From the IMG/VR virus record IMGVR_UViG_3300036781_000300, positions 1-29,844 of that record: DNA of 29,844 bases. One strand, 5' to 3'. Position numbers and translations under genes: made by a program. The notes beneath the pieces were generated by a model. The model was not told the origin of the DNA. It ran no database searches and was given only the letters and a program-made list of their open reading frames with translations. Origin of the DNA: a virus. The stretch's first letter is position 1; the number at the start of each line of letters is the position of its first letter. Positions 1 to 18,194 of this stretch are shown piece after piece.

Positions 1-1835
1 CTTACGGTCACGATCGGAGTTCCCTTGCGGTAGGCGCCGATTGTGCCGCCCTCGCCACTGTTCTGAGTCACCGCGACCGTGCGGGTGGAGTCGTAGACGT
101 TGTCGAACTTGAGACCGTAGACCCCGTAGAACCGGCTCGACACGTCCGCCAGGGTTGGGTCGTACCACGGAGCCAGGGTGATGTCACCGAAGTTGGCCGG
201 GGTGGGAGGAGGAGCGGGAGGGTAGTTGGAGATGACGACCGTCACGTGCGAGATCATGACGCCGGACGCACCCCACGCCAGCGCGTTGTTGTACTGGGTC
301 TTCGTCGCGGCGATGTGGCCGATCGTCGGCTTGCCGTACTCGAGGGTGGCCTCCATGTCCGACTGGACTCCGGTGACGACATCCATGCCGAGGATCGTCC
401 AGTGAGACTCCTGGGCGGCGAGGGTGCCGTCGCCGATCGCGGCGGGGTAGGCGTAGCCCCACGACTTGTAGCCGCGCGCGGTCGCCTGGTCAGCCCAGTA
501 GAACGATCCGATTGGTCCCTTGGCGAGGAAGCGCGCGGGGCCTCCGTGCGAGTCTGTGTAGGCCAGGAGGTTGTTGATCTGGTCGGTTGTGTTGCGCTTG
601 GCATCCACGAGTAAGACCCGGTTGGCCAGGAGCGGGTGTTCCACGACGTCCTCGAGGCGGGCAATCGGCTCCCCGGTGATCGTGTTGGTGAGGCCCTTGA
701 GCGCGGCCCAGGTGGAGGTGGTGATGTCGGGCGCGTCAGGACCGAAGAGACGGGTTGGGGTGCGGTCCTCGGAGATGACCTGCACGCCGTCGACCGTCAT
801 CCACAGCGGTACCTCGAAGGCCAGGTGCCGGTTGTAAGCCGCCGAGTTCAGGTAGGCGATGAGCGAGCCCTCGGACCAGTCGAGCTCGGAGCCGCGATGG
901 GCCACCTGCATAGGGGCGTTTGCGGGGTTGAGGAACTGGTCGACGGTCGCGATCGGGGTCTGGTCGCCAGGCGTGTCGTCGCCCGACGCCGGGGTCGGGG
1001 GGATTGCGATCTGGAACGCCCAGCCGTTGGTGGCCTGGGAGTTCGGGTAGGTCGTGTCGATCTCCTGCGAGGCCTCGGCGTGGTCAACGCTCGAGGTCGA
1101 GATGTCGGTGGTAGTGATTGAGGAGCCGGAGGCAGCGGCGAAAAACCACTCTGTGGCGCCGGAGATCGAGGAGATGCCCGTCTCAGTCGCGGTCGTGCGC
1201 TCGAAGGAGAAGCCAACCACGAGTGAGTCGTCGGCTGGTCCGGTCAGCGACAGGGCCATGTTGACGGTGGAGGAGGTAGGAGCTGTGGTCCTCGCTTTGC
1301 CAACGCCGATGGTCCAGTTGGCCACCACGTCGCCGTTGCGCACCCAGAAGAGCGCGCCGTTGAGGAAGCGGGAGTTGGTGACGTTGAAGTTGTAGGAGGT
1401 CTCCCCGGCTCCGCGCTCCCGGGCGTAGATCTTGGTGAGCATCGTGCCAACCGTGCCCCAGCCCGGCTGGAGCTCGGTCCATCCCGTGTCGGCGGGGGTG
1501 ATGGTATCGCCCGAAGGCGCGTTCACGTGTACGACCGCGATGACCCAGTCGCCGACCGCGATTGGGTTGCCGCCTGTGGGGGAGGACGGCGAGAGGTTGA
1601 TCACCGTGTTGGCGGAGGCGGGGGCAGAGGAGAAGTATCCGATCGGGGCGGAGGGAACGGCGGGCGTACCCCCTGAGTCGTCTCCCGAGTCGTCCGACGC
1701 TGAGCCGAGGGCCGCCGCCAGTTCCGGGTAGGTGGGGCCGATGATCCAGGCCACCCCGGCCTGCTTCGTGAGAGCGGCGATGCGCGCGGAGTTGACGACC
1801 TCGACCCCGCCGTACTCGATGAACCCCTCGAACAT
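1..1835 (-). CDS. Minor tail protein with degenerate GDPD-like domain (3' end beyond window)
   Basis: This reading frame starts at ATG 1835, overlapping the tape-measure stop as TGATG, and stays open to base 1, so at least 611 residues are seen and the C-terminus is missing. A gene directly after the tape measure is normally a distal or minor tail protein. Residues 47-55 carry two DSG motifs. From residue 313 the protein reads like a glycerophosphodiester phosphodiesterase: AHRG with H313, then E341 and a TVDG turn, then a VLLVDAK strand. Compared with GlpQ from memory, the Asp of the E-x-D metal site is Pro343 and the second catalytic His is Glu356, with Asp357 kept. I infer a binding or altered activity rather than a normal hydrolase, perhaps toward glycerol-phosphate wall polymers. 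The family call is moderately secure; tail location rests on synteny. Confidence 0.8.
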   Translation of the reverse strand, partial: MFEGFIEYGGVEVVNSARIAALTKQAGVAWIIGPTYPELAAALGSASDDSGDDSGGTPAVPSAPIGYFSSAPASANTVINLSPSSPTGGNPIAVGDWVIAVVHVNAPSGDTITPADTGWTELQPGWGTVGTMLTKIYARERGAGETSYNFNVTNSRFLNGALFWVRNGDVVANWTIGVGKARTTAPTSSTVNMALSLTGPADDSLVVGFSFERTTATETGISSISGATEWFFAAASGSSITTTDISTSSVDHAEASQEIDTTYPNSQATNGWAFQIAIPPTPASGDDTPGDQTPIATVDQFLNPANAPMQVAHRGSELDWSEGSLIAYLNSAAYNRHLAFEVPLWMTVDGVQVISEDRTPTRLFGPDAPDITTSTWAALKGLTNTITGEPIARLEDVVEHPLLANRVLLVDAKRNTTDQINNLLAYTDSHGGPARFLAKGPIGSFYWADQATARGYKSWGYAYPAAIGDGTLAAQESHWTILGMDVVTGVQSDMEATLEYGKPTIGHIAATKTQYNNALAWGASGVMISHVTVVISNYPPAPPPTPANFGDITLAPWYDPTLADVSSRFYGVYGLKFDNVYDSTRTVAVTQNSGEGGTIGAYRKGTPIVTV

Positions 1836-4800
1836 CAGCCCAGCCCCACTTTCTCCGCCAGGCGGTTGACGAACTCCTGCGCGACCGCCTTCGGGTCAGC
1901 TCCAGGCGACTCGAAGTGGTTGTCGATCTGGGTGCCAGGACCACCGTCTCCGTTGCCTGAGGATGAGGCTACCCCAGTGTTGGCCGCTCTCTTGAGCGCG
2001 GAGACCGCGGCGGGGAAGGCCGACAGGACCGTCTGCAGCATCTTGTTCATGAGCCCTGTGTCGACGACTGACTCAGCCTTGCCCCCTTCGCCGAGGACCG
2101 CGAGCGTGCCACCCGGACGGGGAAGGACTGTACCGCCCTGGGCGAGGTGGGGCAGCGGGGCAACGTGGAGCTTCACAGCCCCGCCCGTGATGGCACCGGC
2201 CGCCGACGCGACCTTGTTCACTCCGGAGATGAAGCCGTTGATTAGGTCGATGATCCCGTTGATCCCGCCCTTGATGAACGACTGGATGCCACCCCAGATG
2301 TTCTGCACGACCGACTTGAGTCCGTTCCAGGTCTTCGACCACGCCGTGGAGATGAGGCCGGTGGCGGTCGAGATCACGGACTTGATCTTGTTGATCGGCC
2401 CCGAGACGATCGCCACGAACCCGGACCACAGGCTGGAGAAGAACGAGGAGACCCCGCCCCAGACCGACTTCCACCCGCTCGCGATAGCGCCGATGACAGC
2501 GGCGATGACAGCCTGCATCGTGTGGATGATCGGGGTGTAGAAGGCGACGAGTCCGTTCCAGATTCCCGCGAAGAAGCTCGAGATGCCGGACCAGGCCGCG
2601 TTCCAGGCGCTCGCGATGAGGCCGACGACGGTACCGATGAAGGTCTGGATGCCGAGGATAATCGGCGTGTAGAAGGCCACCATCTGGTTCCAGATGCCGA
2701 CGAAGAAGGACGAGATCGCGCCCCACACCGTGTTCCAGAGGGAGGAGATGAAGGTGAGCACCGCTGTGATCACGTTCTTGATCACGGTGAACTCGATGAT
2801 CGCGATCGACTCCATCAGCACCCAGATCGCCTGGAAGACGCGGAAGATCCCGGTCCAGAATCCGTTCCAGACCGCTAGGAAGGGCGCGAGGATCGGGGCG
2901 AGGAAGTTCGCAATCCCGGTCAGCACCCCGGAGATGAAGTTCGAGATGTTGGTGAAAACGGAGGTGATGAAGTCCCGGATCTGGCCGAAGTGGGAGATGA
3001 TGATGCCGAGCAGGGTCCAGTTCAGGAACAGGTTCACGATGAAGTTGAGCACGTTCTTGAAGACCGTCTCGATGCCGTTCCACACGGAAACGAAGAACGA
3101 GCCGATGGCCCCGAAGACGGCCTTCCCCACCGCCAGCATCCCGTTCCACGCGGTGGTGAGAAAGTTGACGATGTTCTGCCACACGGCCTTGCCGAGCTTG
3201 GTCTGGGTGAAGAAGTAGATCAGACCCGCCACGAGCGCGGCGATGGCGGTGATGATGATGCCGATCGGGTTGGCGTCCATCGCGATGTCGAAGGCGATCT
3301 GGGCGGCGGTCGCGATCTTCGAGATGACCTCGTAGGCCTCCAGCGCCAGGTTCCAGAGCTTGAAGGCGCCCACAATCGCGAGGATCGGCGCGGCCAGCGC
3401 GACGAGGATCGGGAGGAGCGGGGTGATGAAGGAAAGCACGGCGCCAACGGCGGTGCCTACCGGCACGAGCACTTTCGACAGGTTGAGGACGAGGGGAATT
3501 ACCGTGTTCAGCGCGCTCGACAGGAGCGGGCCGACCGCGGCCGCCACAGGCGCGATTGCCACCAGGAGCTGCCCGAGGACGGGCACGAGGGTACGGAGGG
3601 CGGTAGCGAAGACCGGTCCGAGGGCCGTGAGCACGGTGCCCGCGAGGGTGCCGATGATGCCGAGCTTTTCGGCGAAGACCGGCAGAAGCGGGATGATCGG
3701 CTGGATGAAGTTGAGGACACCAGCGAAGAACGCGCTCAGACCCGTCTTGAACACGGGAGCGGAGAGGGCCTTGGCCAGCCCGGAGAACAGGGAGCCGATG
3801 GTCTGCCCCGCCCCGGCGAGGAAGCCGGAGAGGATCGGCGCGAGACTCGCGAGCATGTTGCCGATAGGGGTGAGGGCCGACATCAGCCCCTGGGCGCCTA
3901 CCGACGCGCCCTTGAAGAACGTCGTCAGTGCCGTCTGGAACGCGGGGCTGTTGACGATCTTGCCGAGCATCGCCAGCGGGGTGAGCATGTTTTGGATGCC
4001 GGCAGCCTGGGCGGCGGTGCCGATCCCGGTGAGCACCTGGACGAGCGACTTCGCGGCGTTCCACACCAGCTGGAGGATGGCGCCGAGGTTCTGGAGGTCC
4101 TTGTTGAGGGCACCGGTCGCGATCGCGTTGGTCAGCCAGGTGTTGAAGGTGGCAGCGACCTGGGAGATCCAGTAGGCGATCTGCGGGAGCAGGCTCGTGC
4201 CGTAGACCCCGAGGTTGGCGAGAATCTGTGCGAAGGGCTTGGCGGCGGGCGCGAGCTGCTTTAGCCCGGCGACCATGTTGGAGAAGATCTTCGCCAGTGC
4301 CCCCGACCCTCCCAGACTGTCCTGGAAGTCGGCGATGAAGCCCCCGAGGAAGGAGCCGAGCTCGGCGGAGACCGCCCCCAGGCCTTTCTTCGCGATGGGG
4401 AGCATGCCGTTGAAGAACGACTCCACCGGCTTCTGCGCCTTGGCCCAGAAGTTGTTGGAGATGACGTTCTGGAGCACTTTGTACTGGGTGACGGCGGCCT
4501 TGATGGCGGGCGGCGCGCCCTTGATCGCGAAGGTGACGATGGCGACGGAGGTGGCGACCGAGGCAAGGAGGCCTGGGTAGGCGAGGAGCGCGGCGCCAAA
4601 GCCGGAGACAGCCGGGAGCACAGTGAGCAGAGTGCTCCCCAGACCGCCGAGCGTGTCGAGCGCCACAGCGCCCAGCGAGCCGAAGGCCGCCGTCATCTGC
4701 GCGATCTTCGGCAGGTTGGAGAAGAACCCCGTCAGGAGTTCTCCGAAGTGCTCGAACCCTCCGGAGAGGGCGGTGATGCCGGTGAGAGCCTTGAGCTTGA

Positions 4801-5122
4801 TCGCGGCTTTGGCCAGAGCTTCATCCCGGATGTTGACTCCGAGACTGATGGCTTTGAGCGACTGCTCCTTGATCCAGACGTCCAGGCCCGCCGAGGCTAG
4901 GGCCGTGTCGACCTTGGTGCGGATGTCCAGGGCCTTGGCCGAGGCCTTCTTCACCCAGGCGGAGAGGTCCACGTTGGCGGCCGCTGTCTGCAGGGCGATC
5001 GCGATCTTCGCCTGGAGCTTCTTCGACATCTCGTCGAGCTTGGCCTTGAGGCGGGCCTCGAAGGAGGTGGTGTCCGCGACGACGTCGACGGAGACATCGC
5101 CGATGTCGTTGTCAGTCGCCAT
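1835..5122 (-). CDS. Tape measure protein
   Basis: The 1095-residue protein sets tail length and is threaded through the tail tube; at about 0.15 nm per residue it predicts a tail near 160 nm. ATG 5122 follows a strong purine-rich ribosome site (GGGAGGAGG). The N-terminus is Ala/Lys-rich and helical. Residues from about 120 to 650 contain long hydrophobic stretches typical of tape measures. From about 790 to 960 there are Trp-rich near-repeats of about 45 residues built around SSFF-GIWN-AFYTPII. The C-terminal end is Gly/Ser-rich followed by a short helix. It follows the tail assembly chaperones and precedes a minor tail gene, which is the usual order. No peptidase or lysozyme motif was seen. 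Identity is based on length, composition and position, which together are strong. Confidence 0.95.
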   Translation of the reverse strand: MATDNDIGDVSVDVVADTTSFEARLKAKLDEMSKKLQAKIAIALQTAAANVDLSAWVKKASAKALDIRTKVDTALASAGLDVWIKEQSLKAISLGVNIRDEALAKAAIKLKALTGITALSGGFEHFGELLTGFFSNLPKIAQMTAAFGSLGAVALDTLGGLGSTLLTVLPAVSGFGAALLAYPGLLASVATSVAIVTFAIKGAPPAIKAAVTQYKVLQNVISNNFWAKAQKPVESFFNGMLPIAKKGLGAVSAELGSFLGGFIADFQDSLGGSGALAKIFSNMVAGLKQLAPAAKPFAQILANLGVYGTSLLPQIAYWISQVAATFNTWLTNAIATGALNKDLQNLGAILQLVWNAAKSLVQVLTGIGTAAQAAGIQNMLTPLAMLGKIVNSPAFQTALTTFFKGASVGAQGLMSALTPIGNMLASLAPILSGFLAGAGQTIGSLFSGLAKALSAPVFKTGLSAFFAGVLNFIQPIIPLLPVFAEKLGIIGTLAGTVLTALGPVFATALRTLVPVLGQLLVAIAPVAAAVGPLLSSALNTVIPLVLNLSKVLVPVGTAVGAVLSFITPLLPILVALAAPILAIVGAFKLWNLALEAYEVISKIATAAQIAFDIAMDANPIGIIITAIAALVAGLIYFFTQTKLGKAVWQNIVNFLTTAWNGMLAVGKAVFGAIGSFFVSVWNGIETVFKNVLNFIVNLFLNWTLLGIIISHFGQIRDFITSVFTNISNFISGVLTGIANFLAPILAPFLAVWNGFWTGIFRVFQAIWVLMESIAIIEFTVIKNVITAVLTFISSLWNTVWGAISSFFVGIWNQMVAFYTPIILGIQTFIGTVVGLIASAWNAAWSGISSFFAGIWNGLVAFYTPIIHTMQAVIAAVIGAIASGWKSVWGGVSSFFSSLWSGFVAIVSGPINKIKSVISTATGLISTAWSKTWNGLKSVVQNIWGGIQSFIKGGINGIIDLINGFISGVNKVASAAGAITGGAVKLHVAPLPHLAQGGTVLPRPGGTLAVLGEGGKAESVVDTGLMNKMLQTVLSAFPAAVSALKRAANTGVASSSGNGDGGPGTQIDNHFESPGADPKAVAQEFVNRLAEKVGLG

Positions 5123-5212
5123 GATCCCGCCTCCTCCCTCGTCCTGCGGAGTCTCACGCGGGCGTTCTAACCCACGATGTGTGCGAGGCGGAGATCACGG
5201 CTCGGGTGCATC

Positions 5213-5844
5213 TTACTTCTTTGGGGCGCTCCCACCCATACTCGTTTTCAGCGCGGCGAAAGAGTTGCCCTCGTTCTGGCTGGACCAGGGCGAGCGCGGG
5301 TCGTTGACGATGGTGCCGCGGGCGGGTCGCCACAGCTGGGCGCGGAGCTTGTCCTTGTCCTTCTCGTCGGCGTTGTTGGTGAGCATCCACCAGACGAAGT
5401 TGGCGAAGCGGGCGAGGTCCATCTCCTGGAGGTGTGGCATGTTGTGCGCCACGGCGTAGCCGTCGAGGTCCGCCCACTGGTCCTGGGCGGTGGAGACGAG
5501 CCTCGCGACTACGAAGTAGGGTTTCCCGTTGCCTCTTCGGTCAGCTTGTCGATGATCTCGAAGATGTGGTCGAGGTCGAGGTCGTCCTCGGGGTCCTCGA
5601 GCCGCTCCTGGATCTGCGGGGCGACCTTCGCGCCGAACATCAGCTGGATGATCGTGTCGAAGTCACGCCCCATCTTCTCGGCGTCGCCGGACGACTTGTC
5701 GCCCTTCTTGCCCGAGTGGCGGGAGATCGCGAGGAGGAGGGCGGTCTTCGGTGTCTTGACCTGGTAGACCGTGCCGAGCAGGTCGACTCCGACTGGCTTC
5801 TTCGGAGTGGCGGAGATGTGGATTACGGGAGCGGAAGGTGACAT
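5213..5844 (-). CDS. Tail assembly chaperone G-T fusion made by -1 frameshift
   Basis: The long form begins at ATG 5844, shifts back one base on the heptamer GGGAAAC (5527 to 5521) and continues in the -1 frame to the stop at 5213. That gives 108 upstream residues plus 102 more, about 210 in all. The downstream frame is open right through the shift site and has only a GTG at 5452 with no convincing ribosome site, so it is best read as the T extension. Siphophage G/T chaperones bind the tape measure and recruit tail tube subunits, and are not in the mature virion. Sitting just before the tape measure supports this. The G-GGA-AAC phase is exactly right for tandem -1 slippage. Confidence 0.88.
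5509..5844 (-). CDS. Tail assembly chaperone, short form (G)
   Basis: This 111-residue product ends at TAG four codons after the slippery heptamer. It has a helical, acidic C-terminal half with an EDPEDDLDLD stretch, as in other actinophage first chaperones. ATG 5844 has no Shine-Dalgarno; instead TATGAT lies so that six bases (CACCCC) separate it from the ATG, which fits a leaderless transcript. A 27-base gap separates it from the gp10-like gene upstream. The role (binding the tape measure before tube assembly) is inferred from position and from the frameshift signal, which is the hallmark of this gene pair. Confidence 0.88.
   Translation of the reverse strand: MSPSAPVIHISATPKKPVGVDLLGTVYQVKTPKTALLLAISRHSGKKGDKSSGDAEKMGRDFDTIIQLMFGAKVAPQIQERLEDPEDDLDLDHIFEIIDKLTEEATGNPTS
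5521..5527 (-). other. Programmed -1 ribosomal frameshift site GGGAAAC
   Basis: On the minus strand the heptamer reads G GGA AAC in the frame of the upstream chaperone, matching X-XXY-YYZ. The zero-frame stop is nine bases past it, after CCT ACT TCG, and the -1 frame then stays open for 102 codons. No clear downstream pseudoknot was worked out. Confidence 0.85.
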
Positions 5845-5850
5845 GGGGTG

Positions 5851-5856
5851 ATCATA
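5851..5856 (-). promoter_or_regulatory. -10-like TATGAT, possible leaderless promoter for the tail chaperone
   Basis: TATGAT (5 of 6 to TATAAT) ends seven positions before ATG 5844, so initiation would fall on the A of ATG. The block TATGATCACCCCATGTC is nearly the same as the one before the gene at 6309. No clear -35 is seen. Confidence 0.45.
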
Positions 5857-5871
5857 TAGCTCGAGGGGCCC

Positions 5872-6309
5872 TCACGCGAGCGCACCTCCTGGGAGGAAGT
5901 CCACCGCCCGAGTCTTTGCCGCGGCGTTGCGAAGGAAGTTACCCGGCTTCACGCCTCGCACCCGCTTGGCGAAGACGAAGGAGTTGGAGCCCTTGGGCTT
6001 GAACACGAGGAACTGCGCCTTCTTCGGGTAGATGAACCCGATGCCCGGGGCCTCCTTTGGTGTTCCCAGTTCCTGGTAGGGGAAGTGGGCGGAGGTGTTA
6101 TAGACCTTGTACGTCGGCCGGCCCGGCGCCTTGGTCACCTTCTTCACCTTGAACCCCGACATCATCTCGCCGGTGTCGTAGCGTCCTTGGCCGATGACCG
6201 AGGCACGTGCGCGGAGGGCGATTCTCTGGGCGGCGCGGTAGGCGGCCTTGTCGGCGAGATCGCGCACCACCACGTTCAGCTTGTTGGAGTCGATGTTGGT
6301 GCCGGACAT
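5872..6309 (-). CDS. HK97 gp10-like neck / head-tail joining protein
   Basis: The 145-residue basic protein looks like the HK97 gp10 family. It has an N-terminal helix rich in Ala/Arg (residues 16-38), then RYDTGEM, the SGFKVKKV strand, a YKVYNTSAHFPYQELGT segment (HK97 gp10 members have a similar Y-x-x-x-x-E-xGT), and a basic C-terminal stretch. Proteins of this family sit at the head-tail interface or help complete the tail. It is the first gene after a 475-base non-coding region and comes before the chaperone pair, which is the usual place. The ATG start has no Shine-Dalgarno, but TACGAT lies six bases upstream. Confidence 0.82.
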   Translation of the reverse strand: MSGTNIDSNKLNVVVRDLADKAAYRAAQRIALRARASVIGQGRYDTGEMMSGFKVKKVTKAPGRPTYKVYNTSAHFPYQELGTPKEAPGIGFIYPKKAQFLVFKPKGSNSFVFAKRVRGVKPGNFLRNAAAKTRAVDFLPGGALA

Positions 6310-6315
6310 GGGGCG

Positions 6316-6321
6316 ATCGTA
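6316..6321 (-). promoter_or_regulatory. -10-like TACGAT, possible leaderless promoter for the gp10-like gene
   Basis: TACGAT ends six bases before ATG 6309 and no ribosome site is present. The string TACGATCGCCCCATGTC differs from the one at 5844 at only two positions. Confidence 0.42.
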
Positions 6322-6373
6322 CAGCGGCGGGAGGGAGAAACAGCCCAGATCTCCCGCACCTGGCTAAAACCGT

Positions 6374-7290: not shown

Positions 7291-8157
7291 CTACCGCCTC
7301 GAGCCGACGGACCAGCCGGCGCCCATGCCGCGGCGTGTCTCCGGCGAGGAGACTCCGACGTAGTCACGCGGGGTGGTCACCGAGCCGATCCAGGAGTCGA
7401 TGGTGAAGATCCCGGTTCGCCCGTCCTGGGCGTCCTGGAAGGTGGTCTGCACGATGTCCATCGACACGCCCTGGCGGGTGACGGACTGGACGCGCGAAGG
7501 CAGGGCGCAGTCGCCGTCCCCGCTCATGGCCTTGGCTAGCTCGCACGCGAGCAGTCCCGCGGCGAGCTGACCACCCATCGGAACCGGTACCCCGTGGTCG
7601 AAGTCGATGGTCCAGGTGTTCGGCGTTCCGATCGAGGCGTAGAGGTCCTGGCGGGTGGGCCACGACTGTCCATCCTGGCGAATGAGGGTATGGCCGTTGT
7701 CGACGCGGTAGGCACTCGGGTCGAGGAGGAGACCTCCGATGTCGATTGCGTTGACGTCCTGGACCGGACCAGGGAGGTGGATGGCGCGCGGATCGGCGTG
7801 CGAGCACACCAGCATGCCGCACTCGCCACAGCGGAACTCGAGCCAGGAGCCACCGAAGCCCAGGAGCGGGAGGAAACCATATCCCGGGATCGAGCCCAGA
7901 TCGTAGTACGCCGCGGGCGGGCCGAGCCCCTCGAAGGTGGATGGACGCCAGGGTGTCTTCACACGGGTGGGGCGGACGATCTCGCGCCTCGAGCCGAAGA
8001 TGCGGTTGGTCCAGTTCCAGAGGAGGTTGGCTGCCATCTCTTCGCAGTCGGCCTGGAGGGTGTTGCCGGAGTCGCCTGAATCGTCGCTGTCGGTGAATAC
8101 CGAACAGCCGGTGCCCACATAGGACACCGGCCATTCGCCTGACTCGAAGTAGACCAC
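7291..8157 (-). CDS. Head-to-tail adaptor protein
   Basis: The 288-residue protein follows the actinophage adaptor pattern: CGECG...C (residues about 111-118), LPGPVQDVNAIDIGG, YRVDNGHTLIRQDGQSWP, then the helical LAAGLLACELAKA followed by CALPSRVQSVTRQGVSMD and TGIFTIDSWI. Adaptors dock on the portal and form the first neck ring. Residues about 22-32 carry SDDSGDSG, an acidic DSG insert also found in other structural proteins of this phage. The GTG start at 8157 lacks a good ribosome site; TAGGCT lies six bases upstream, though it overlaps the preceding stop codon. Spacing to neighbours is 4 and 2 bases. Confidence 0.82.
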   Translation of the reverse strand: MVYFESGEWPVSYVGTGCSVFTDSDDSGDSGNTLQADCEEMAANLLWNWTNRIFGSRREIVRPTRVKTPWRPSTFEGLGPPAAYYDLGSIPGYGFLPLLGFGGSWLEFRCGECGMLVCSHADPRAIHLPGPVQDVNAIDIGGLLLDPSAYRVDNGHTLIRQDGQSWPTRQDLYASIGTPNTWTIDFDHGVPVPMGGQLAAGLLACELAKAMSGDGDCALPSRVQSVTRQGVSMDIVQTTFQDAQDGRTGIFTIDSWIGSVTTPRDYVGVSSPETRRGMGAGWSVGSRR

Positions 8158-8161
8158 GTGG

Positions 8162-9010
8162 TTAGCCTACGGGCTGGTCGGGGTTCTCGACGTCCTCGCC
8201 CGTGGGCTGGGCCGCGAGGTCCTCGGCAGCGGCCGCTTCCGCGTCCTTGGTCTCCTGGACTGCGGTGTTGACGTCTGGGGCAACGGCCTCGGTGACCGGG
8301 AGCGCCGCGTCAGCGTCGCCCGCGACCGTGGTGTCTTCCACTGCGCCACCCTGGTCGGGGTCGCCCTCGGGGGCTGGGTCGTCGACGGGGGCAATCGTGA
8401 CGTCCTCGGGAGCCGGCTCGGCAGCCGCAACAGCGTCGGCCTCGTCCTGGGCTGATGCGTCAGGGATTGGCTCGCCGTCGATGACCGGAGCGGCTGCCTC
8501 GGGGTTGATCGCGACCTGCTCTTCGGCCGGAGCGTCGGCGGGAACTGCCTCGCCGCTGTCGGCGACAGGTGCGTCGGTTGCCGTCACCGGGATCTCGCCG
8601 ACGGAGACGTTGCCGTCAGCGTCGACTACCTCGCCAGGTGTTCCGTCCGAGGGCGGGACGTCCTGGACGACGCCGTTCTCGTCGGTGACGATGGCCGGAA
8701 GCGGCTCGCCGGAGTCGTCGGGAACCGGAGCACCTGAGTCCTCAGCTCCCGAATCGGCCACAGGTGCCCCGGAGTCTTCGCCCGAGTCAGCCCCGGAGTC
8801 GGCTCCAGAGTCGGCTGGCGCGCCGCTGTCCTCGGCGCCGCTCTCAGGCGCGTTCTCGCCAGCGAGTTCACCTTCGAGAGCGGCCTGCTCGCCAGCGGCT
8901 GCGGCTGCGGCGTCCAGCTCGTCCTCTTCGCGCTCGAGGTCGCCGAGCTCCGCGAGGAGCTCCTTGCGGCGCGCACGGTTGCGGTCACGGATGTCGAATT
9001 TCAGGTTCAT
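8162..9010 (-). CDS. Acidic, DSG-rich low-complexity protein
   Basis: The 282-residue protein is not recognised as a known family. Residues 1-40 are charged and probably helical (DRNRARRKELLAELGDLERE). The rest is almost free of Lys/Arg and very rich in Ala, Asp, Glu, Pro and Gly. Between about residues 53 and 152 there are nine DSG motifs. The Ser codons used for them include TCC, TCA, TCG, TCT and AGC, so this is not recent DNA duplication. It overlaps the gene before it as ATGA and sits between the major tail protein and the adaptor. A scaffold, decoration or tail-surface role is possible; I infer a disordered protein and no enzymatic activity. Confidence 0.75.
   Translation of the reverse strand: MNLKFDIRDRNRARRKELLAELGDLEREEDELDAAAAAAGEQAALEGELAGENAPESGAEDSGAPADSGADSGADSGEDSGAPVADSGAEDSGAPVPDDSGEPLPAIVTDENGVVQDVPPSDGTPGEVVDADGNVSVGEIPVTATDAPVADSGEAVPADAPAEEQVAINPEAAAPVIDGEPIPDASAQDEADAVAAAEPAPEDVTIAPVDDPAPEGDPDQGGAVEDTTVAGDADAALPVTEAVAPDVNTAVQETKDAEAAAAEDLAAQPTGEDVENPDQPVG
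8164..8169 (-). promoter_or_regulatory. TANNNT hexamer before adaptor GTG start (weak)
   Basis: TAGGCT ends six bases before GTG 8157, as at four or five other starts without a ribosome site. It overlaps the end of the upstream gene, so an internal leaderless promoter here is only a suggestion. Confidence 0.2.
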
Positions 9011-9331: not shown

Positions 9332-10030
9332 TTACGGGACGGCGACCGGCTGCTCGTCGACGACCGGGGCCGCAACCGCCGTGTCGATGAGGAGGAAGTG
9401 GTCGAACGGGTCGAGAGCGGTCGGAAGCGGGGCGGCGACTCCACCGGAGTCCTCGGCTCCCGAGTCGTCCGTGACGCCGTTCATCACGACGTCGTAGGGG
9501 CCGATTCCCCACTGGTTGCCACCACGGGTGGAGGAACCGGTGAGGTTGAAGTCGATCGCGTCTTCGCCGTCCACCTTGATGTCGTCGATGTTGCCCTTGC
9601 CTGCGTAAGGCAGGAGCATGTAGCCGTTCGCGTGGGTGTCGTTGAGGGCTCCGGAGAGTCCCGTCCACACCTCGAGCGCGTACTGGCCGACGATCTCACC
9701 CTCGGGGATGGTGAAGCCCGCGACATCTCCGGCGTAGTCCTCGTACTCGACCGCGTTGGAGACGTAGCTCAGGAGCGACGGGTTGACCCCGCAGAACTCG
9801 ATCTCGATGTCCAGGCGCTTGAACGTCGGGTTCATCTTCTCGTTGATGCAGAGCTGCCCGAAAGCGTTGCGGGTGATGATCTCCGTGCCGTCCTCGACCT
9901 GGGCCGAGAGGGTGACGGTGATGAAGCCGTCGGTGGCGATGAAGTGGGCGCCGACAGTGCCGTCGTCGTTCATCTGGGTGACCCTGATCCGCTTCCCCAG
10001 GAGGGGAGCGAACTTATGCGTGTTCGTCAT
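9332..10030 (-). CDS. Major tail (tube) protein
   Basis: The 232-residue protein matches the actinophage tail tube pattern: RIRVTQMNDDGTV near residue 14, a GFITVTLSAQVEDGTEI strand pair, N-A-x-G-x-L-C-I, and LDIEIEFCGVNPSLLSYVSN at residues 73-92. It would polymerise into the inner tail tube. Near the C-terminus (about 187-198) is DDSGAEDSGG, a DSG pair outside the conserved core, followed by an Ala/Val/Pro-rich end. The ATG has a good ribosome site (AAGGAG). It precedes the head-to-tail connector genes, whereas in most siphophages it follows them. Confidence 0.9.
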   Translation of the reverse strand: MTNTHKFAPLLGKRIRVTQMNDDGTVGAHFIATDGFITVTLSAQVEDGTEIITRNAFGQLCINEKMNPTFKRLDIEIEFCGVNPSLLSYVSNAVEYEDYAGDVAGFTIPEGEIVGQYALEVWTGLSGALNDTHANGYMLLPYAGKGNIDDIKVDGEDAIDFNLTGSSTRGGNQWGIGPYDVVMNGVTDDSGAEDSGGVAAPLPTALDPFDHFLLIDTAVAAPVVDEQPVAVP

Positions 10031-10928: not shown

Positions 10929-12635
10929 CTAGGAGGTCGCGCCGTCGTTGAGCAGCTCGGCGCCGATGTTGGTCGTACCGTCCGAGGAGATCTGGACGGT
11001 GATGACCCGGGAGTCCGGACCCGCCTTGGCCAGGAACCAGCCCTGCTCGGTGAAGAGCACGGTGTAGTCGTTCGTCCCCAGGAGGGTCGAGTCGTACATC
11101 GTGTCGAGCGAGATGACGTCCGAGGTGCCCTCGACCCAGGTGCCGGCCGAGTACAGCAGGAACGACACGTGCGTCGGGAACGCCAGCTGGGCGGTGGCGG
11201 CGGTACCGGCGATGGACTGCCAGTCGTAGACGTACTCCAGCGAGATCCCGCGCAGCGTGAACCACGCGTTGATGTCGGCATCCGTGACGTCCAGGAGCGC
11301 GACACCGAGGCGGCGGCTCAGGTCGGCGCGGAAGGCACCCTTGATCCAGTGCGGGAACTTCGCCTCCAGGGTCGCCAGGAGCGGCATGCGGTGCGTGTCG
11401 CGGTAGTGGAGAACCTGGACCTCGACCGCGGCCAGGACCGGGGCGACCGAGCCGAGCTGGGCAGCCGTGAAGTTGATCGCCGTGGAGCCGGAGACGGCCT
11501 TGGCGATCTTCTTCGCGTTGATCAGGTGCTCGTGGGCGTCCATGACCTGGGCGACCTCTTCCGAGATGCCCTGCGGGTAGCCACGGTTCTCGAGGATACC
11601 GGCCTGGATGTGGATGCCGTCGACCTGCAGGCGGTAGTCCACCCATTCGGTTGGGGGAATCCGGTAGACCGGCTTCGGGCCGGAGACGTTGCCGCCCGAG
11701 CCTGGCTCGTAGTCACCGTCGATGTCCTGCTGCTCGGTGAAGGCGATGTAGTCAGGCGACGCGTAGACCGACGCGAACGTCGAGCCGTGCGGCATCTGGA
11801 GACCACCGTGTTCGATGCCGATGGTCGGGAAGGTCGCGAGGCCTTCCTGGCTCGACAGCTTTGGGAAGCGGTCGTAGGAGATGTCCGAGGGAGCTCCCCA
11901 ACCGCCCGAAGCGATGAGCGATCCGCCCGGGAGCTTCGTCTGGTCGCGGGCCGACTCGATCGCCTTGCGGATGACGCCCTTGGAGGCGCCCTCGCGGATC
12001 ATGCGGTCCTCGGGGATCTCGCGCTTGAACGCTGCGAACGACTGGATCGTCTTGAGCGGACGGCCCGACTTCGCCGCGTTGGCGTAGGGAGTGACGTTGA
12101 AGTTGCCGAGGCGACGGTCGAGGGCCGAGCCGAGCTTGTCCCAGTCCATCGGCGCGTCGATCGGCAGGCCCAGGCCCTCGCCGGTGGCGTAGGCAACAGC
12201 CTTGGGCTCGGCGTCGGCTGCAGCGGTGTCGGTGGCGAAGCCGGCCGTTGCCTCCGAGTCGCGGTCCGAGGCCGCCGTGATGGTCGAGCTGTCGTCGGCG
12301 ACACCCGGGGTGACCGTTGCGTCAGCGCCGCTGTCCGCTCCGGAGTCCTCGATGTCGGCCGACAGCGTGCCGGAGTTGATCGTGATGGTCGCGAACTTGT
12401 CGCGGTCGCCCTTCATGGCGGCGAACTTGTCTGCGGTGGCCTGGCGAGCACCGAGCTCGTCGGTCACCTTCGTCAGGCCCTCGGTGAGGGACGCGAGCGT
12501 CTTGCTGTCCTCGTCGGGGATCGACGCGAAGTCGTCCTTCCAGAGGGTGTCGAACTCCTCGAGGCCTGAGACGCGCAGTGCGTCGAGCTCCTCGATCGAG
12601 AGGGAGGTAAGGTCCTCCGGGAATACGGTCTTCAT
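10929..12635 (-). CDS. Major capsid protein with N-terminal scaffold-like region
   Basis: The C-terminal two-thirds match HK97-fold actinophage capsid proteins: HWIKGAFRADLSRRLG, then VTDADINAWFTLRG, YVYDWQS, FPTHVSFLLYSAGTWVEG, and LDTMYDSTLLGTNDYTVLFTEQG. About 200 residues at the N-terminus are acidic and helical, like the delta or scaffold region removed by the protease. That region contains EDSGADSGAD near residue 97. I place the start at ATG 12635, giving 568 residues, because GGAGG sits five bases before it; a TTG four codons upstream overlaps that site. A strong promoter and a 5' hairpin precede it. Confidence 0.93.
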   Translation of the reverse strand: MKTVFPEDLTSLSIEELDALRVSGLEEFDTLWKDDFASIPDEDSKTLASLTEGLTKVTDELGARQATADKFAAMKGDRDKFATITINSGTLSADIEDSGADSGADATVTPGVADDSSTITAASDRDSEATAGFATDTAAADAEPKAVAYATGEGLGLPIDAPMDWDKLGSALDRRLGNFNVTPYANAAKSGRPLKTIQSFAAFKREIPEDRMIREGASKGVIRKAIESARDQTKLPGGSLIASGGWGAPSDISYDRFPKLSSQEGLATFPTIGIEHGGLQMPHGSTFASVYASPDYIAFTEQQDIDGDYEPGSGGNVSGPKPVYRIPPTEWVDYRLQVDGIHIQAGILENRGYPQGISEEVAQVMDAHEHLINAKKIAKAVSGSTAINFTAAQLGSVAPVLAAVEVQVLHYRDTHRMPLLATLEAKFPHWIKGAFRADLSRRLGVALLDVTDADINAWFTLRGISLEYVYDWQSIAGTAATAQLAFPTHVSFLLYSAGTWVEGTSDVISLDTMYDSTLLGTNDYTVLFTEQGWFLAKAGPDSRVITVQISSDGTTNIGAELLNDGATS

Positions 12636-12653
12636 GGTGGCCTCCAAGGCGAA

Positions 12654-12670
12654 GTAGTGAGATTCACTAC
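12654..12670 (-). other. 5' leader hairpin before the capsid ribosome site
   Basis: GTAGTGA and TCACTAC form a seven-base perfect stem with a three-base loop, ending eight bases before the GGAGG of the capsid gene. A hairpin here could shield the transcript's 5' end or tune translation. Confidence 0.5.
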
Positions 12671-12719
12671 GAGGCCCTACCGAGGCTCCTCACATGGAGC
12701 GCCATCCGTCAGAGCAGAC

Positions 12720-12748
12720 ATTAGCACGCCGACGGCGAGAAATGTCAA
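12720..12748 (-). promoter_or_regulatory. Sigma-70-type promoter for the major capsid gene
   Basis: On the minus strand TTGACA (12748-12743) is followed after 17 bases by GCTAAT (12725-12720). The -35 is a perfect match and the -10 fits four of six. The 118-base gap between the Cys protein and the capsid gene holds both boxes, predicting a leader of roughly 75-80 bases. Confidence 0.7.
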
Positions 12749-12765
12749 CACTCCCCGAACGAGGG

Positions 12766-12966
12766 TCAACCCTCGATGTGCCCGCCACCGCCCCGGATGA
12801 CCGCCGCGCGCGCTCCGAGCAGGTCGAGGCCCGCTGTGCGCGTGCCGTCTGGGGCGACGTAGACCAGGCCCGAGCCTCCCCCGGACGCCACCAGAGACTT
12901 GGGCGGCGTGCCAGGGGTAGGACGACCGAGAGGGGCAGGCTTGTTGCAGTTGCAGTCTTTGGCCAT
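12766..12966 (-). CDS. Small Cys/Gly-rich protein between protease and capsid genes
   Basis: The 66-residue protein begins MAKDCNCNKP, a CxC motif followed by a Pro/Gly-rich region and a more ordered C-terminal half (LVYVAPDGTRTAGLDLLGARAA). Its ATG overlaps the protease stop as TGATG. Short Cys-containing proteins in this position occur in other actinophages; the role is unknown. CxC could bind metal or form disulphides. Confidence 0.7.
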   Translation of the reverse strand: MAKDCNCNKPAPLGRPTPGTPPKSLVASGGGSGLVYVAPDGTRTAGLDLLGARAAVIRGGGGHIEG

Positions 12967-15900
12967 CAGCGAAGCTCCTTGACACGGGCGGCGAGTGCCT
13001 CCATGTTACGCCGCTGAACGAATTCTCGGATATGCGACGAGCGGGAGTCCTTGGCCAGAGTCATGAGCTTCTCCGCCTCCCCGCCCCACGACTTCGTTTC
13101 GGCCGCGCGCTCCTTGAGGTAGAGCAGGTCCTCGATCGAGAGCGCGCCCTTGGTGCCGGGCTTGACCACGGTGCGAGGCGCGACCAGGCCAACCGCCTGC
13201 ATCGAGGTCACATTGCCCGCCGAGGCAACGAGCGCCTGGACGCGCGGGACACCGAACCCCGGGGCGTTGACCGCCAGTCCCATGACGAGCTCGAGCCGTC
13301 CCGTGTTCGGGTCTTCCCGCCAGTCTCCGGAGAGCGGCGAGGCCTTGAGGGCGCGAAGCTGGTTTGCTGAGATGTCGGGGCGAAGAGCACCGGCAACCCA
13401 GATCCCATAGGCGTCCTCGCCAACGCGAACATCAGCGCCAACCCAGCCGCTGTGGCTGTAGTGTACCAGCGTCGAGTTGAGACCCCAGATCGGGTCCGCG
13501 TGCGGGGCACCAGCAACGAGACGCCCTGTGGGTACATCGACGCCCTCCTCGGTGGTCACGTAGCCGGTGTGGAAGCCAGCGTATCCGTTGTGCGACTTGG
13601 GCGCGCGCACGCAGGTCTGCCCGAGCTCCTTCGACTCCATGTGGCACGACTGCCAGGTGGCGAGGTGGCCGTAGACCCGTCCCTCCGGGGTAACAGTAAA
13701 CGGCGTCACACCCGTTAGCTTCGGGTTGGCGAACCAGTCCTTCGGAGGCGCGACGGGCGCGAGTGTCTGGCCACCCGAGGCGACCAGCGAGGTGATGTCG
13801 GTCGGCCGGGCGCTAACGGCGATGTCGCCAGCCAGCTCCGCCTCCCAGGCCTCCAGATCGAAGGCCTCGAGTTCTGCGGCCCACCCATCCGGGATCAGCG
13901 ACTCCTTGCCGAGGGACTTCGCGCGGCTCTTGATGTGCTTCTTCGCCGCGGCGGGGTTCTTTGCCCGTCCCTGGGCCTTGATCGCGGCCTTGAGGTCCAC
14001 CACGTCGTCGATCGGGAAAGACCCGTCCGGCATTGCGGCTCCCGAGGATGCGCCCTTCTTGCGGGAGGCCGCGCTCTTGGCGCGGAAGTAGGCCTCGGCC
14101 GCGCCGACGGTGGCGAAGACGACCTCGTCCGCGTTCGCGTTGACGTGCGAAGCAGCCTTCTTGGCCTCCCACTCCGCTAGCGCCGCGAGCGACTTGGCGA
14201 CCGTGTCCGCCTTCACCCCGTTACCGCCCCGGCTCCACCTCTTCACCGTCGAGACGGCGGCGGCGATCGCGTGGCTCTCGTCCATGCCCTGGGCCTGGAG
14301 GTGCTGGGCGATCTTCTTGATGTAGTGCGGCAGGCCCCCGGTCTCCTGCACCCAGTTCTTGTGGCTGGCCGACTTGAAGGCCTCGGTGGCCGACGCGTAG
14401 CCGGTCTCCGGCTTCGCGCGCGCGGGGTTCTGCGCAATCGCGTACCCATCGTCACCCTCGTCGTCTCCGCTGTCATCCGGACTGTCGCCATCTCCGTCGC
14501 CGTCATCCCCGGAGTCGGTAGGACCCGAGGTGATGAGCGAGATGATCGCGGTCTTGAACAGGTCGAGGGCCGAGGCGATGTCCGGCACGCCGGCGTAGAC
14601 CTGGCACAGCGTACCGAGCTGGGCGAGGAGGACGGGAGCCGCGGCCGCCACCGTCGCCATGTCGCCACTGTAGGCGGCCGAGATGATCTCGCCACCCAGC
14701 GCCTCGAGGGTTTCGAGGTCGGTGGGGTCGAAGCCGGAGACGGGGTCACCGCTTCCGAGCATCGCGACGAGCCCAGTCAGGAGGCCTCCCTCGGGCGTGG
14801 AGGTCAACGCGTCCGTACCGGAGTCGCTCCCCACGTCGATCGCGCCGGAGTCGATCGCGTCCAGTCCGTCCATCACGAGGTCAGGCAAACCCGAATCCCC
14901 GCTGTCCTCGCCAGAGTCGCCAACCACGGCGTCGAAGGGTCCCGCGCTCGGGTCGTCGGCGATGATTACGACCGTGGAGCCGGACTCCACCGCGTCGAGG
15001 ATCGCCTCGTCGAGCATGTCGTCTCCGGTGTCGGTGGGGTTGACCTTGACGTTGATCCCCTCCATGCCACCTTCGCTGGAGTCCTCGCCACTGTCTCCTG
15101 AGTCACCCGAATCAGCGTCGAGCTCGAGCGTGAAGGACTCGTCTGCCGCGGACGCCGCTACGAGCACGGAGTTCTCCAGGGTCTCGTAGGCGGTCGAGGC
15201 CTCCGCGTAGACCTCGGAGCCGGTCGCCTCGTTGAGGTAGTCCTGGTAGAGAGCGCCGGTGGCCTCGTAGAACGAGGGCGCGGTGGTGAAGACCGTGTTC
15301 CAGTCGCCGGATGCCAGGGCAGCGTCGAGCGTCTCGGCGAACTCCGTGGCGGAGGAGATCGCTGTCGCGCTCACCTCGAGGCCACCGTTCGCGAGCGTCA
15401 TGATCAGGCTCTGCAGGGCCAGGCCCGGGAGCGGCATTGACTCACCCGTCACCGGGTTCTTCCACTCCGTGCCGAAGCCGACTACGCCCTGCTCGCTGAG
15501 CTCGTCGCAGCCACAGTCCTCTTCCGCTACAGCGTCGTCTCCACGAAAGGACTCGCTTCCCGCGAGGACCTCCGTCTCTCCCGCAGCCTTGGCGACAGGC
15601 GCCGAGCCGTTGATGGAGAGTCCTCGGTTGGCTGCCTCTGCCTCGAGGGCCGAGATGTCCGAGGCCTTGCCACCGTTCATGATCAGCCCACGCAGGCGCT
15701 GGAGCAGTACCGCGTCGGAGACGTCGGAGAGGTCCGCGCCGCTCGGGTTGTCCTGGGGTACGGGCACGCCACCGGAGGGTGACTTGGCCGACTTGACCGC
15801 AGCCGAGACAGCCTGCTTGGGGCTCATACCGCCCTGCACGTTGGCTCCGATGTCGTCCCAGAGCGCCTGGAACTTCGTCGGGTCCGTCGCCGTGGCCAGG

Positions 15901-18194
15901 TCGATCTTGCCCGCCTTGAACTGGGCGTTGACCTCGTCCCAGGCCTGAGCGCCCTGTTCGTATCCGGACTGCGCGGCCATTGCCTCTTCGGGCGAGTCGA
16001 AGTGGCCGAAGTCACCCTTCGAGCCGTGGTCGCCTACCGGACGCAGGAGGTAATACTGCGGCGGGTCGGCGTTGGGCTCGATCGCCCATCCCTTCGGCGG
16101 GCCTCCGAGCTGGGTACGCGCGCCGTCGAAGCCGGACTTGAAGTTGGTCGGGTCGGCTGCCCCCGCCTCCTTGAGCGACTTGGGAGTGGTCGCGATCGAG
16201 CCGTCGGAGTTGGTCTTCGGACCGGGCGGGAACGCCTCGGCCTTGGTCTCGTTCAGCGCGGTCTTGTGGCTCTTGCCAGCCTGGCGCTTGTCTTTGTAGA
16301 GCTGGGTCTGGGCAGTGTTGTTCCCGAGCGGGGAGAGCCGTCCCTGCTTCTCGGCGTGTGCGTGGAGCTGCGTCGAGGCCTGGTCGAGGTCCTTGTACGG
16401 AATGCCGTTCTCATCGGTTCCGGGCGCCTCGGGGTCTAGGGGTGGACCGTCGGGCGCGCCGGAGTCTTCCGCATCGCTGTCGGCTCCGGAATCCTCGGAA
16501 GCGTTGTCACTGCCGGTTTTCTGGAGCTTGCTGTAGTGCTGCTTGTACGGGGTACCGTCATCGCCTTCGTAGCTGACGTCGCCGCCACTTACTGCCGTGA
16601 CCGTACCGGTTCGACCCTTGTCGTCGACTACGGTGTCTCCCACCTGCGGGTCAGGCCCGGGCTTGCCCTTGTCGCTGTACGGAACCGGCTCGCCTTCGGC
16701 GGGAGTCGCCTGGTCGGATACGCCGTCGCCGGTAGTGCCGATCTTCTGCAGCTTGGTGTAGTGCTGCTTCATCGACTTGCTGCCATTGGCGACGTCGGTC
16801 TCATAGGAAACCTGGCCAGCGTTCACTCCGGTTACGGTGCCGGTGTTGCCATCACCGTCGGTGACCCGGTCACCCTCGTCCGGGTCCGGGCCGTCGTCTC
16901 CTTTGTGGGTGTAGGCCACCGGGTTGTCGGGAGATGCCCCGTCCGAGGTGTCGGAGGCACCGGAGTCCTCGGGCGCTGTGGAGCTGATCCCTTCCAGGTC
17001 ACTCGTGTCCTCGAGGTCGATCGCGCCGGAGCTCGGACCCTCGTCGGGGTTGTCGAAGTCACTCCCCTCGGGCGCGCCCTCGTCGACGGTGCTGCTGTCC
17101 CCGGTCTCGAACGAGTCGGCGTTCTGGATCTCATCGAGGGTGGCGGTGAGGTCCGCGGGAGTGGTTACGTCGCCACCCTTCTCGAGCGCGTCGAGCGTGT
17201 TCTGGAGATCGGACGCCGAGGTCTGCGCCTTGTCGACGTCGTTGGCCTGCAGGGCCTTGTCAATCTTGGCGGCCTGGTCCGTGAGCAGGTCACGTGTCCC
17301 GGGAGACAGGGACTGGCCGGGCGTGCTGGAGCCGCCGTCCTCAGACGAGGATCCGTCGAGCCACTTCCCGAGCGCGATCGAGGGCATGTCGATCCACTTC
17401 CCGTTGGACGGGTCGCGCCACTGGTCGGGGTTGTAGGCGAAGGTGCCAACCTTGTGTCCGGTGAGTGTCTCCACCTTGGAGCGCATGGCAGCTAGGGCGC
17501 GCGCCTTCGGGGAGAACTTGAACGCAGCGGCGAGCACCTCGACCTGCTTGGCGTCCCGCTCGCGCTCGGCTGTGTAGCCGGCTCGGATTGCCTCGAACTC
17601 CTCGTCCTCGGAGGCGAAGGTGGTCGAGAACGCGCCGTGGCCCACGCCGATGCGGAAGTTCGCGCCGCGGGAGGCGATGAGGGCGAGGCGGGCCTCGTCG
17701 AAGGCGGGGATGGCCACGAGGGTGGCTGCGCGAACGCGGGCCTCGTGGGTGACCAGGACGTTGGGGGCAACGCTCTCCTCGCCGTCGGCGCCGTACATGC
17801 GCACCTCGGCGTCGAACGCGTCGACCGAGTCGAGGTCCATGGACACGCCCGAGAGGAACTGGCCGCGCATGAGGCGGGCGCACTCGCGACCGTCCTTGGA
17901 GCCAAGGTCGAGCACACCCCAGGCGTAGATGTCGCCGTTGTCACGGCGCTCCACGCGGTCGATGCGGCCCACGATCACCGCACCGTCGTGTCCGCCGAAG
18001 TCGGCTGGAGCGTAGCGCAGCGGCAGCGGGAAGGTGGCCCACTCGAGGCTCTGCTCCTCGATCAGGCGTCCGTCTCCCGTCAGGAGGCCTTCCACGCCGA
18101 TGACGCCCTCGAAGGGTGCCGTGCCGCTCGGGCCGGTGAACGCGTCGTGGACTTTGAGGTCCGTCTCCGGGTCTGCGAGCAGGGTGTCAGGCAT
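12966..18194 (-). CDS. Giant capsid maturation protease with interrupted domains
   Basis: The 1742-residue protein opens with the prohead protease part (about 1-185): PLPLRY...GGHDGAVIVGRIDRVERR with a likely catalytic His, GVSMDLDS with a likely Ser, then RAATLVAIPAFDEARL. Near residue 1485 is the second part known from actinophage proteases: DWFANPKLTGVTPFTV, GRVYGHLATWQSCH, GIWVAGALRPD, LSGDWR and a VNAPGFGVPR end. These parts are normally close together in proteins of about 450-650 residues. Here the span between them holds two KOW/SH3-like repeats (about 423-486, 501-562), 13 DSG motifs in acidic linkers, helical segments, a GGLPHYIKKIAQHL segment (about 1285) and a MPDGSFPIDDVVDLKAAIK segment (about 1385, DUF6582-like). 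ATG 18194 has an AAAGGAG site. It would trim the capsid N-terminus; the insert's role is unknown. Confidence 0.85.
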   Translation of the reverse strand: MPDTLLADPETDLKVHDAFTGPSGTAPFEGVIGVEGLLTGDGRLIEEQSLEWATFPLPLRYAPADFGGHDGAVIVGRIDRVERRDNGDIYAWGVLDLGSKDGRECARLMRGQFLSGVSMDLDSVDAFDAEVRMYGADGEESVAPNVLVTHEARVRAATLVAIPAFDEARLALIASRGANFRIGVGHGAFSTTFASEDEEFEAIRAGYTAERERDAKQVEVLAAAFKFSPKARALAAMRSKVETLTGHKVGTFAYNPDQWRDPSNGKWIDMPSIALGKWLDGSSSEDGGSSTPGQSLSPGTRDLLTDQAAKIDKALQANDVDKAQTSASDLQNTLDALEKGGDVTTPADLTATLDEIQNADSFETGDSSTVDEGAPEGSDFDNPDEGPSSGAIDLEDTSDLEGISSTAPEDSGASDTSDGASPDNPVAYTHKGDDGPDPDEGDRVTDGDGNTGTVTGVNAGQVSYETDVANGSKSMKQHYTKLQKIGTTGDGVSDQATPAEGEPVPYSDKGKPGPDPQVGDTVVDDKGRTGTVTAVSGGDVSYEGDDGTPYKQHYSKLQKTGSDNASEDSGADSDAEDSGAPDGPPLDPEAPGTDENGIPYKDLDQASTQLHAHAEKQGRLSPLGNNTAQTQLYKDKRQAGKSHKTALNETKAEAFPPGPKTNSDGSIATTPKSLKEAGAADPTNFKSGFDGARTQLGGPPKGWAIEPNADPPQYYLLRPVGDHGSKGDFGHFDSPEEAMAAQSGYEQGAQAWDEVNAQFKAGKIDLATATDPTKFQALWDDIGANVQGGMSPKQAVSAAVKSAKSPSGGVPVPQDNPSGADLSDVSDAVLLQRLRGLIMNGGKASDISALEAEAANRGLSINGSAPVAKAAGETEVLAGSESFRGDDAVAEEDCGCDELSEQGVVGFGTEWKNPVTGESMPLPGLALQSLIMTLANGGLEVSATAISSATEFAETLDAALASGDWNTVFTTAPSFYEATGALYQDYLNEATGSEVYAEASTAYETLENSVLVAASAADESFTLELDADSGDSGDSGEDSSEGGMEGINVKVNPTDTGDDMLDEAILDAVESGSTVVIIADDPSAGPFDAVVGDSGEDSGDSGLPDLVMDGLDAIDSGAIDVGSDSGTDALTSTPEGGLLTGLVAMLGSGDPVSGFDPTDLETLEALGGEIISAAYSGDMATVAAAAPVLLAQLGTLCQVYAGVPDIASALDLFKTAIISLITSGPTDSGDDGDGDGDSPDDSGDDEGDDGYAIAQNPARAKPETGYASATEAFKSASHKNWVQETGGLPHYIKKIAQHLQAQGMDESHAIAAAVSTVKRWSRGGNGVKADTVAKSLAALAEWEAKKAASHVNANADEVVFATVGAAEAYFRAKSAASRKKGASSGAAMPDGSFPIDDVVDLKAAIKAQGRAKNPAAAKKHIKSRAKSLGKESLIPDGWAAELEAFDLEAWEAELAGDIAVSARPTDITSLVASGGQTLAPVAPPKDWFANPKLTGVTPFTVTPEGRVYGHLATWQSCHMESKELGQTCVRAPKSHNGYAGFHTGYVTTEEGVDVPTGRLVAGAPHADPIWGLNSTLVHYSHSGWVGADVRVGEDAYGIWVAGALRPDISANQLRALKASPLSGDWREDPNTGRLELVMGLAVNAPGFGVPRVQALVASAGNVTSMQAVGLVAPRTVVKPGTKGALSIEDLLYLKERAAETKSWGGEAEKLMTLAKDSRSSHIREFVQRRNMEALAARVKELR

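Follow-up and report, generated by a model that had tools for sequence, protein, structure and literature searches.

Genome layout and DSG-bearing proteins

The window, the whole 29.8-kb stretch of DNA analyzed here, is an IMG/VR virus record from a phage whose hosts are probably actinobacteria. Its minus strand carries a glycosyltransferase (GT) cassette and the genes for the portal, a MuF protein, a protease fusion and the major capsid protein, together with those for the major tail protein, an acidic protein, the adaptor, neck, tape measure and tail (Table 1). The top matches of the capsid protein in a phage collection were Microbacterium phages, with 35–40% identity over nearly the full protein. 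Two of these phages, FuzzBuster and SM23, have the same head/tail gene set as the window and major capsid proteins 39–40% identical to its own but, unlike the window, show no DSG excess and lack homologs of GT23321, GT24040 and GT24725. Part of the head region had no match in a near-DNA search of the phage collection, and scans of genome contigs retrieved no bacterial or prophage relative. No convincing minus-strand gene was seen in the ~1.2 kb that separate the gene at 21639 from the GT cassette (22076–23321).

The tripeptide Asp-Ser-Gly (DSG) occurs 30 times in six unrelated proteins of the virion module, most of them structural. The original prediction, made from the sequence, had assigned two copies to the tail protein, two to the adaptor, nine to the 282-a.a. 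acidic protein, two each to the major tail protein and the N-terminal region of the capsid protein, and 13 to the protease, and our counts reproduced these numbers exactly. Of the six carriers that it had described as virion proteins, the acidic protein is not a recognized one; it has no family match and is only located in the structural operon. The carrier that it had called a protease is in fact a 1742-a.a. fusion protein. The tape measure, portal, MuF and neck proteins of the window contain no DSG, and the only other copies in minus-strand genes are two single ones, both in protein cores, one in a glycosyltransferase (a conserved IDDSG/VDDSG) and one in the nucleotidyltransferase. As predicted, all of the virion-module sites lie outside the recognizable cores, in acidic, low-order linkers: order-promoting residues make up 7–24% of the sequence near DSG versus 19–37% in the same proteins, and the net acidity is higher. 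One linker stretch bearing DSG is DSGDSGDSGEDSS. In the alignment of the major tail protein, the DSG pair is an inserted NGVTDDSGAEDSGGV where the related phage G036 has NNDSPGV.

Table 1 Features of the window, with the DSG clusters (copies in parentheses); G036, L070 and FuzzBuster are related phages
Feature	Coordinates	Strand	Match or remark
Tail protein with GDPD-like phosphodiesterase domain, runs off the window	3..1835	-	phrog_17803 E 3e-31
Tail protein DSG cluster (2), DDSGDDSGG	1671..1691	-	between short N-terminal part and Ig-like/GDPD-like domains
Head-tail adaptor	7291..8157	-	phrog_783 E 9e-61
Adaptor N-terminal loop DSG cluster (2)	8065..8082	-	insertion vs G036, L070, FuzzBuster
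Acidic 282-a.a. protein, probably disordered	8162..9010	-	syntenic acidic protein of G036 without DSG
Acidic protein, ninth DSG	8552..8560	-	
Acidic protein DSG array (8)	8708..8830	-	
Major tail protein	9332..10030	-	phrog_792 E 1e-50
Major tail protein loop DSG cluster (2)	9443..9466	-	8-residue insertion vs G036 and L070
Major capsid protein	10929..12647	-	phrog_777 E 1e-108; NF033847 E 1e-123
Capsid N-terminal region DSG cluster (2)	12327..12347	-	upstream of conserved SLIASGGW
Head protease fusion, 1742 a.a.	12966..18194	-	phrog_21470, phrog_18402; protease-type core = C-terminal 275 residues
Protease fusion DSG cluster (2)	14466..14516	-	
Protease fusion DSG cluster (5)	14817..14918	-	
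Protease fusion DSGDSGDSG run (3)	15087..15113	-	three different Ser codons
Protease fusion DSG cluster (2)	16458..16493	-	
Protease fusion linker, single DSG	16959..16967	-	
Portal protein	19722..21635	-	SLVASAQ
GT23321, cassette protein	23321..24043	-	phrog_7999, a PHROG of unknown function, sole match
GT24040, glycosyltransferase with GT7C motif (WGYED)	24040..24735	-	PF02709 E 2e-8
GT24725, glycosyltransferase	24725..25408	-	phrog_3047 galactosyl transferase
RfaE/TagD-like nucleotidyltransferase	25405..25920	-	PF01467 E 6e-17
25884, glycosyltransferase	25884..26645	-	phrog_14945

DSG is enriched as an exact peptide word

The frequency of DSG in the virion proteins, which the original prediction had proposed to compare with the Asp, Ser and Gly content, far exceeded it, with 30 copies observed against 3.4 expected from composition. 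Shuffling within 30-a.a. windows (n = 2000), which keeps the local acidity, produced a mean of 4.4 DSG and a maximum of 11. After neighboring copies were merged, 13 separate clusters remained versus 4.3 expected, a number reached by none of the 2000 shuffles; the same was true of the 8 copies (1.8 expected) left when the two richest proteins were removed. The number of proteins hit, six, was by itself just mildly unusual (3% of shuffles).

The enrichment was specific to the order and identity of the three residues. Across all 25 window proteins tested, the reordered words DGS (3), SDG (4) and GSD (4) occurred at the expected 4.0, and the counts of SGD (16) and GDS (9) are partly a consequence of DSGD runs. 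Substituted words were not enriched in the window (ESG, 3 vs 2.4; DTG, 4 vs 3.3; DSA, 1 vs 4.4). At the nucleotide level, the 30 copies use six Ser codons (TCC 12, TCG 6, AGC 5, TCA 4, TCT 2, AGT 1) and form 19 distinct 9-mers, with a mean pairwise identity of 0.741, as compared with 0.788 for independent codon draws. An origin by tandem DNA repeat expansion is thus ruled out, since the codons vary as much as they would in independent draws.

DSG recurs in a second lineage at other positions

Relatives were collected by scans with the protease core and with the major tail protein, which yielded some 60 loci; several of these overlap within one record. We then measured the enrichment of any tripeptide word in 51 sets of homologous virion proteins, in which one record was represented twice. 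Two sets were far outliers, both for DSG: the relative L070 (23 vs 1.7, z 14.9) and the window (30 vs 3.4, z 13.9). About 47 further relatives had no comparable word, and the next best word in any set reached z 7.4. When the acidic protein of L070, encoded between its portal and MuF genes, was added, the L070 count rose to 28 versus 2.1. The picture in L070 resembled that in the window, with a word specific to Ser: DTG (1 vs 2.2), DSA (2 vs 3.4) and ESG (7 vs 1.8). A third phage, L071, gave a weak DSG signal (6 vs 0.9, local shuffles). Acidic linkers are frequent among the relatives, and the generic acidic linker as a full explanation is ruled out by the exact-word test and the 51-set comparison. 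The acidic protein of L071 between portal and MuF (G003 35818–36606) carries an APVESES repeat and its variants instead of DSG arrays, and this repeat may be another Ser motif that plays the same part.

The positions of DSG in L070 differ from those in the window: L070 has a long protease array right before RALVASG, where the window has none. In L025, which comes from another sample and is 98.6% identical to L070, all of the 22 protease DSG copies are kept. The 66 DSG codons of the protease showed three synonymous and no non-synonymous changes between the two, and elsewhere there were 44 synonymous and four non-synonymous changes, so the DSG codons are not a separate proof of selection. DSG-pattern scans of viral contigs returned many matches that consisted of simple DDSG/DDTG repeats confined to one gene; only L025 and L038, the same phage as L070, turned out to be related to the window.

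The closest relative, G036 (L119), shares the gene order of the window and has a protease fusion of similar length, with capsid, portal, adaptor and major tail proteins that are 59–61%, 63%, 60% and 78–80% identical, respectively. Its virion genes contain no DSG at all. The portal and capsid trees placed the window, G036 and L070 in one supported clade, with G036 as sister to the window; L071 was placed in that clade by the portal tree only. Given these trees and the DSG-free sister, DSG either disappeared from G036 or arose on more than one occasion.

The statistics and the reappearance of DSG at non-homologous sites in a second lineage show that DSG is held by peptide-level selection. Selection acts on DSG as a peptide word, and DSG is a lineage-specific, position-free motif, neither a by-product of linkers nor a DNA repeat. 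The proposal that the peptide, not the DNA, is kept or re-evolved is thus strongly supported by the codon scrambling, the 51-set comparison and the L070/L025 substitutions. Even without glycosylation, one exact tripeptide is under selection in six proteins that are unrelated to each other, and a second lineage has it at new positions. Such a proteome-wide linear motif is an unusual case in a virus, for which the motif-free sister G036 provides a natural control.

A glycosyltransferase cassette upstream of the portal gene

A cassette of glycosyltransferase-family proteins and a nucleotidyltransferase sits 1.7 kb upstream of the portal gene. GT23321 lies upstream of the portal gene in four related phages, the window, G036, L070 and L071; among the records of the protease-core relatives, it was found only in L070 and L071, and GT24725 and GT24040 only in L071, upstream of the portal gene and in the same order as in the window. 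G036 has GT23321, a 25884-like gene and, judged by eye, a GT4-like gene, and lacks both GT24725 and GT24040. In L070, a phosphodiesterase gene adjoins GT23321, and because the contig is truncated this phage does not count among the decidable cases. In the decidable cases within the clade, the window and L071 have both the GT24725/GT24040 pair and DSG, and G036 has neither. This association is suggestive, coming from a few lineages of one clade and being confounded by kinship.

Outside the clade, Gordonia phage Octobien14 (L005), Alice and C1 mycobacteriophages, as well as the contigs L117, L304, L305 and L311, carry homologs of GT24725/GT24040 but no DSG tracts. A universal link between the pair and DSG is ruled out by these phages and, judged from such gene contents, the pair is not sufficient for DSG, because homologous pairs occur without DSG tracts. 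GT23321 is likewise present without DSG in G036 and L182. The GT-bearing phages Octobien14, Alice and A3Wally had no alternative tripeptide of their own of comparable strength. L304, L305, L311 and Octobien14 are otherwise different actinophage contigs, in which the pair is in places accompanied by a 25884-like gene.

The models of two of the GTs (mean pLDDT 66 and 59, low confidence), including that of GT24040, showed GT-A-like folds only. The top Foldseek match among the GT models was a PBCV-1 capsid glycosylation enzyme (TM about 0.4), and VIA-align ranked cytidylyltransferases first; given the low-confidence models and the TM of about 0.4, these fold matches were not used as evidence for protein acceptors. 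GT24040 also has a profile match to beta-4-galactosyltransferase 7 (E 7e-4), which we treat as a lead only. No Glycos_transf_1-type match, the type of SdgA/SdgB, was found in the five cassette proteins at Pfam E 0.1, three of which have weak or no Pfam matches.

DSG as a candidate glycosylation acceptor

The observation behind the original prediction is confirmed, and is stronger than first stated. As its mechanism, we tentatively favor Ser-directed glycosylation by a phage glycosyltransferase, with DSG as the candidate acceptor, a reading to which we give somewhat less than an even chance. This option of the original prediction has gained independent context from the GT cassette upstream of the portal gene, some genes of which accompany DSG within the clade; the modification itself is what we infer. 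D-S-G would serve as a short linear recognition motif in exposed disordered linkers, selected as a peptide, and its recognizer would most likely be the phage's own cassette. A first enzyme would attach a sugar to the DSG serine in the cytoplasm of the host, either ahead of assembly or while it proceeds, a second cassette enzyme might extend it, and the nucleotidyltransferase could provide the activated sugar or polyol. If an unfolded acidic DSG suffices for recognition, any virion protein gaining the tripeptide would become a substrate, and this would account for the presence of DSG in unrelated proteins and for its shifting positions. The decoration might shield the particle, protect the linkers from proteolysis, increase solubility or bind the host surface. 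A more specific version, in which a phage-encoded cytoplasmic O-glycosylation system uses a strict D-S-G sequon on many virion-module proteins, internal head linkers included, and the sequon re-evolves at new positions, is possible but rather doubtful.

Some data fit the glycosylation reading poorly. The motif in L070 is as strong as that in the window, yet neither GT24725 nor GT24040 is on its contig as far as that extends. The 13 copies in the protease fusion and the two capsid copies upstream of a probable cleavage site are probably inside the prohead, an odd location for a glycan shield. The sequence downstream of the capsid pair, SLIASGGW, resembles a maturation cleavage site. A surface coat with a purely protective role therefore fails to account for all of the sites, because most are in proteins of head assembly and the capsid pair precedes SLIASGGW. 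Related (S/T)L(V/I)AS(G/A) motifs recur in the protease (SLVASGG and ALVASAG) and the portal protein, are conserved in relatives and are likely maturation cleavage sites, to judge from their sequences.

The main rival is a multivalent docking or assembly motif, the assembly signal of the original prediction, by which a phage protein such as the protease, the scaffold-like acidic protein or the portal gathers head, adaptor and tail proteins without covalent modification. Most of the DSG copies are in head-assembly or neighboring proteins (13 in the protease fusion, nine in the acidic protein and two in the capsid N-terminal region), and selection for an exact word with free position is as compatible with a short linear motif for binding as with a site of modification. 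We nevertheless consider docking unlikely, since DSG also occurs in the tail protein and in a loop of the major tail protein, no candidate reader domain was found, and the motif is dispensable in G036, which has none despite the same gene order and proteins up to 80% identical. The motif could also reflect neutral or weakly selected flexible linkers, with D, S and G favored in disordered spacers and local duplications followed by synonymous drift. All of the copies do lie in acidic disordered linkers, which are common in the relatives, and the DSG(D/E) runs resemble short duplications; this explanation too seems improbable in view of the order specificity (DGS, SDG and GSD at expectation), the lack of E-S-G, D-T-G and D-S-A enrichment in the window, the six unrelated carriers, codons no more alike than independent draws, and relatives whose equally long linkers have no word of such strength.

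It is quite improbable that the Ser carries a modification other than a sugar, such as a phosphate added by a host Ser/Thr kinase or a glycerol phosphate transferred by way of the TagD-like enzyme. Acidophilic kinases favor acidic flanks, which DSG has, and the cassette includes a TagD/RfaE-like nucleotidyltransferase; on the other hand, a strict need for Gly at +1 is not expected of a kinase, and the motif is missing from the nearest relatives, whose hosts are presumably similar. The calcium-binding loops proposed in the original prediction found no support in the sequence and are very improbable: stretches such as DSGDSGDSG and DDGDGDGDSPDD are Asp-rich, but there is neither a fixed, alternating-Asp spacing nor the aromatic/hydrophobic register of RTX or EF-hand-type loops, and DSG also occurs at isolated sites with variable flanks, often Ala or Pro.

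If DSG is indeed a glycosylation acceptor, the sequence of a phage could tell where its particles are modified: from an exact acceptor of three residues one could predict which proteins are decorated and match a glycosyltransferase to its target, and DSG would be a transplantable minimal tag.

Comparison with known glycosylation systems

Freeman et al. 2023, as cited in later papers (PMC12363180, PMC11256854, PMC12619734), reported glycosylated virions of the mycobacteriophages Che8, Corndog and Myrna, with glycans at the C-termini of the capsid and tail tube (PMC12619734). These phages resemble the window as actinobacteriophages with phage-encoded glycosyltransferases, and several virion proteins would carry the mark in the window as well. 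In the window, by contrast, the candidates are copies of one exact tripeptide that lie in internal linkers and N-terminal regions of six proteins, and the glycan is putative. In staphylococci, SdgB adds GlcNAc to the DSD serines of Ser-Asp repeat proteins (PMC3794999), and the window shares with this system an acidic disordered Ser repeat in several proteins, an Asp before the modified (here candidate) Ser, and glycosyltransferases encoded beside some of the substrates. The staphylococcal motif is D-S-D repeats rather than D-S-G, its substrates are cell-surface rather than virion proteins, and the Pfam matches of the window cassette are GT7C/GT2-type. DSD was not enriched in the window virion proteins (3 vs 2.7 expected), and the likeness to Ser-Asp repeats drawn in the original prediction holds as an analogy only. 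The general O-glycosylation of Bacteroidetes uses D(S/T)(A/I/L/V/M/T), extended to include G (PMC8550257), which is likewise a three-residue site starting with Asp-Ser; it accepts Thr and many third residues, whereas the window is enriched only for Ser and Gly, as seen in the DTG and DSA counts above.

Further features of the DSG-bearing proteins

Between a protease-like part at its N-terminus and the protease core at its C-terminus, the protease fusion contains two similar 'GPDP..GD.V.D..G.TGTVT' domains of ~60 a.a. each and two similar helical units. The GDPD-like domain of the tail protein has a homologous piece in L070 (2–817) that directly precedes GT23321, and this domain is possibly a wall-teichoic-acid depolymerase.
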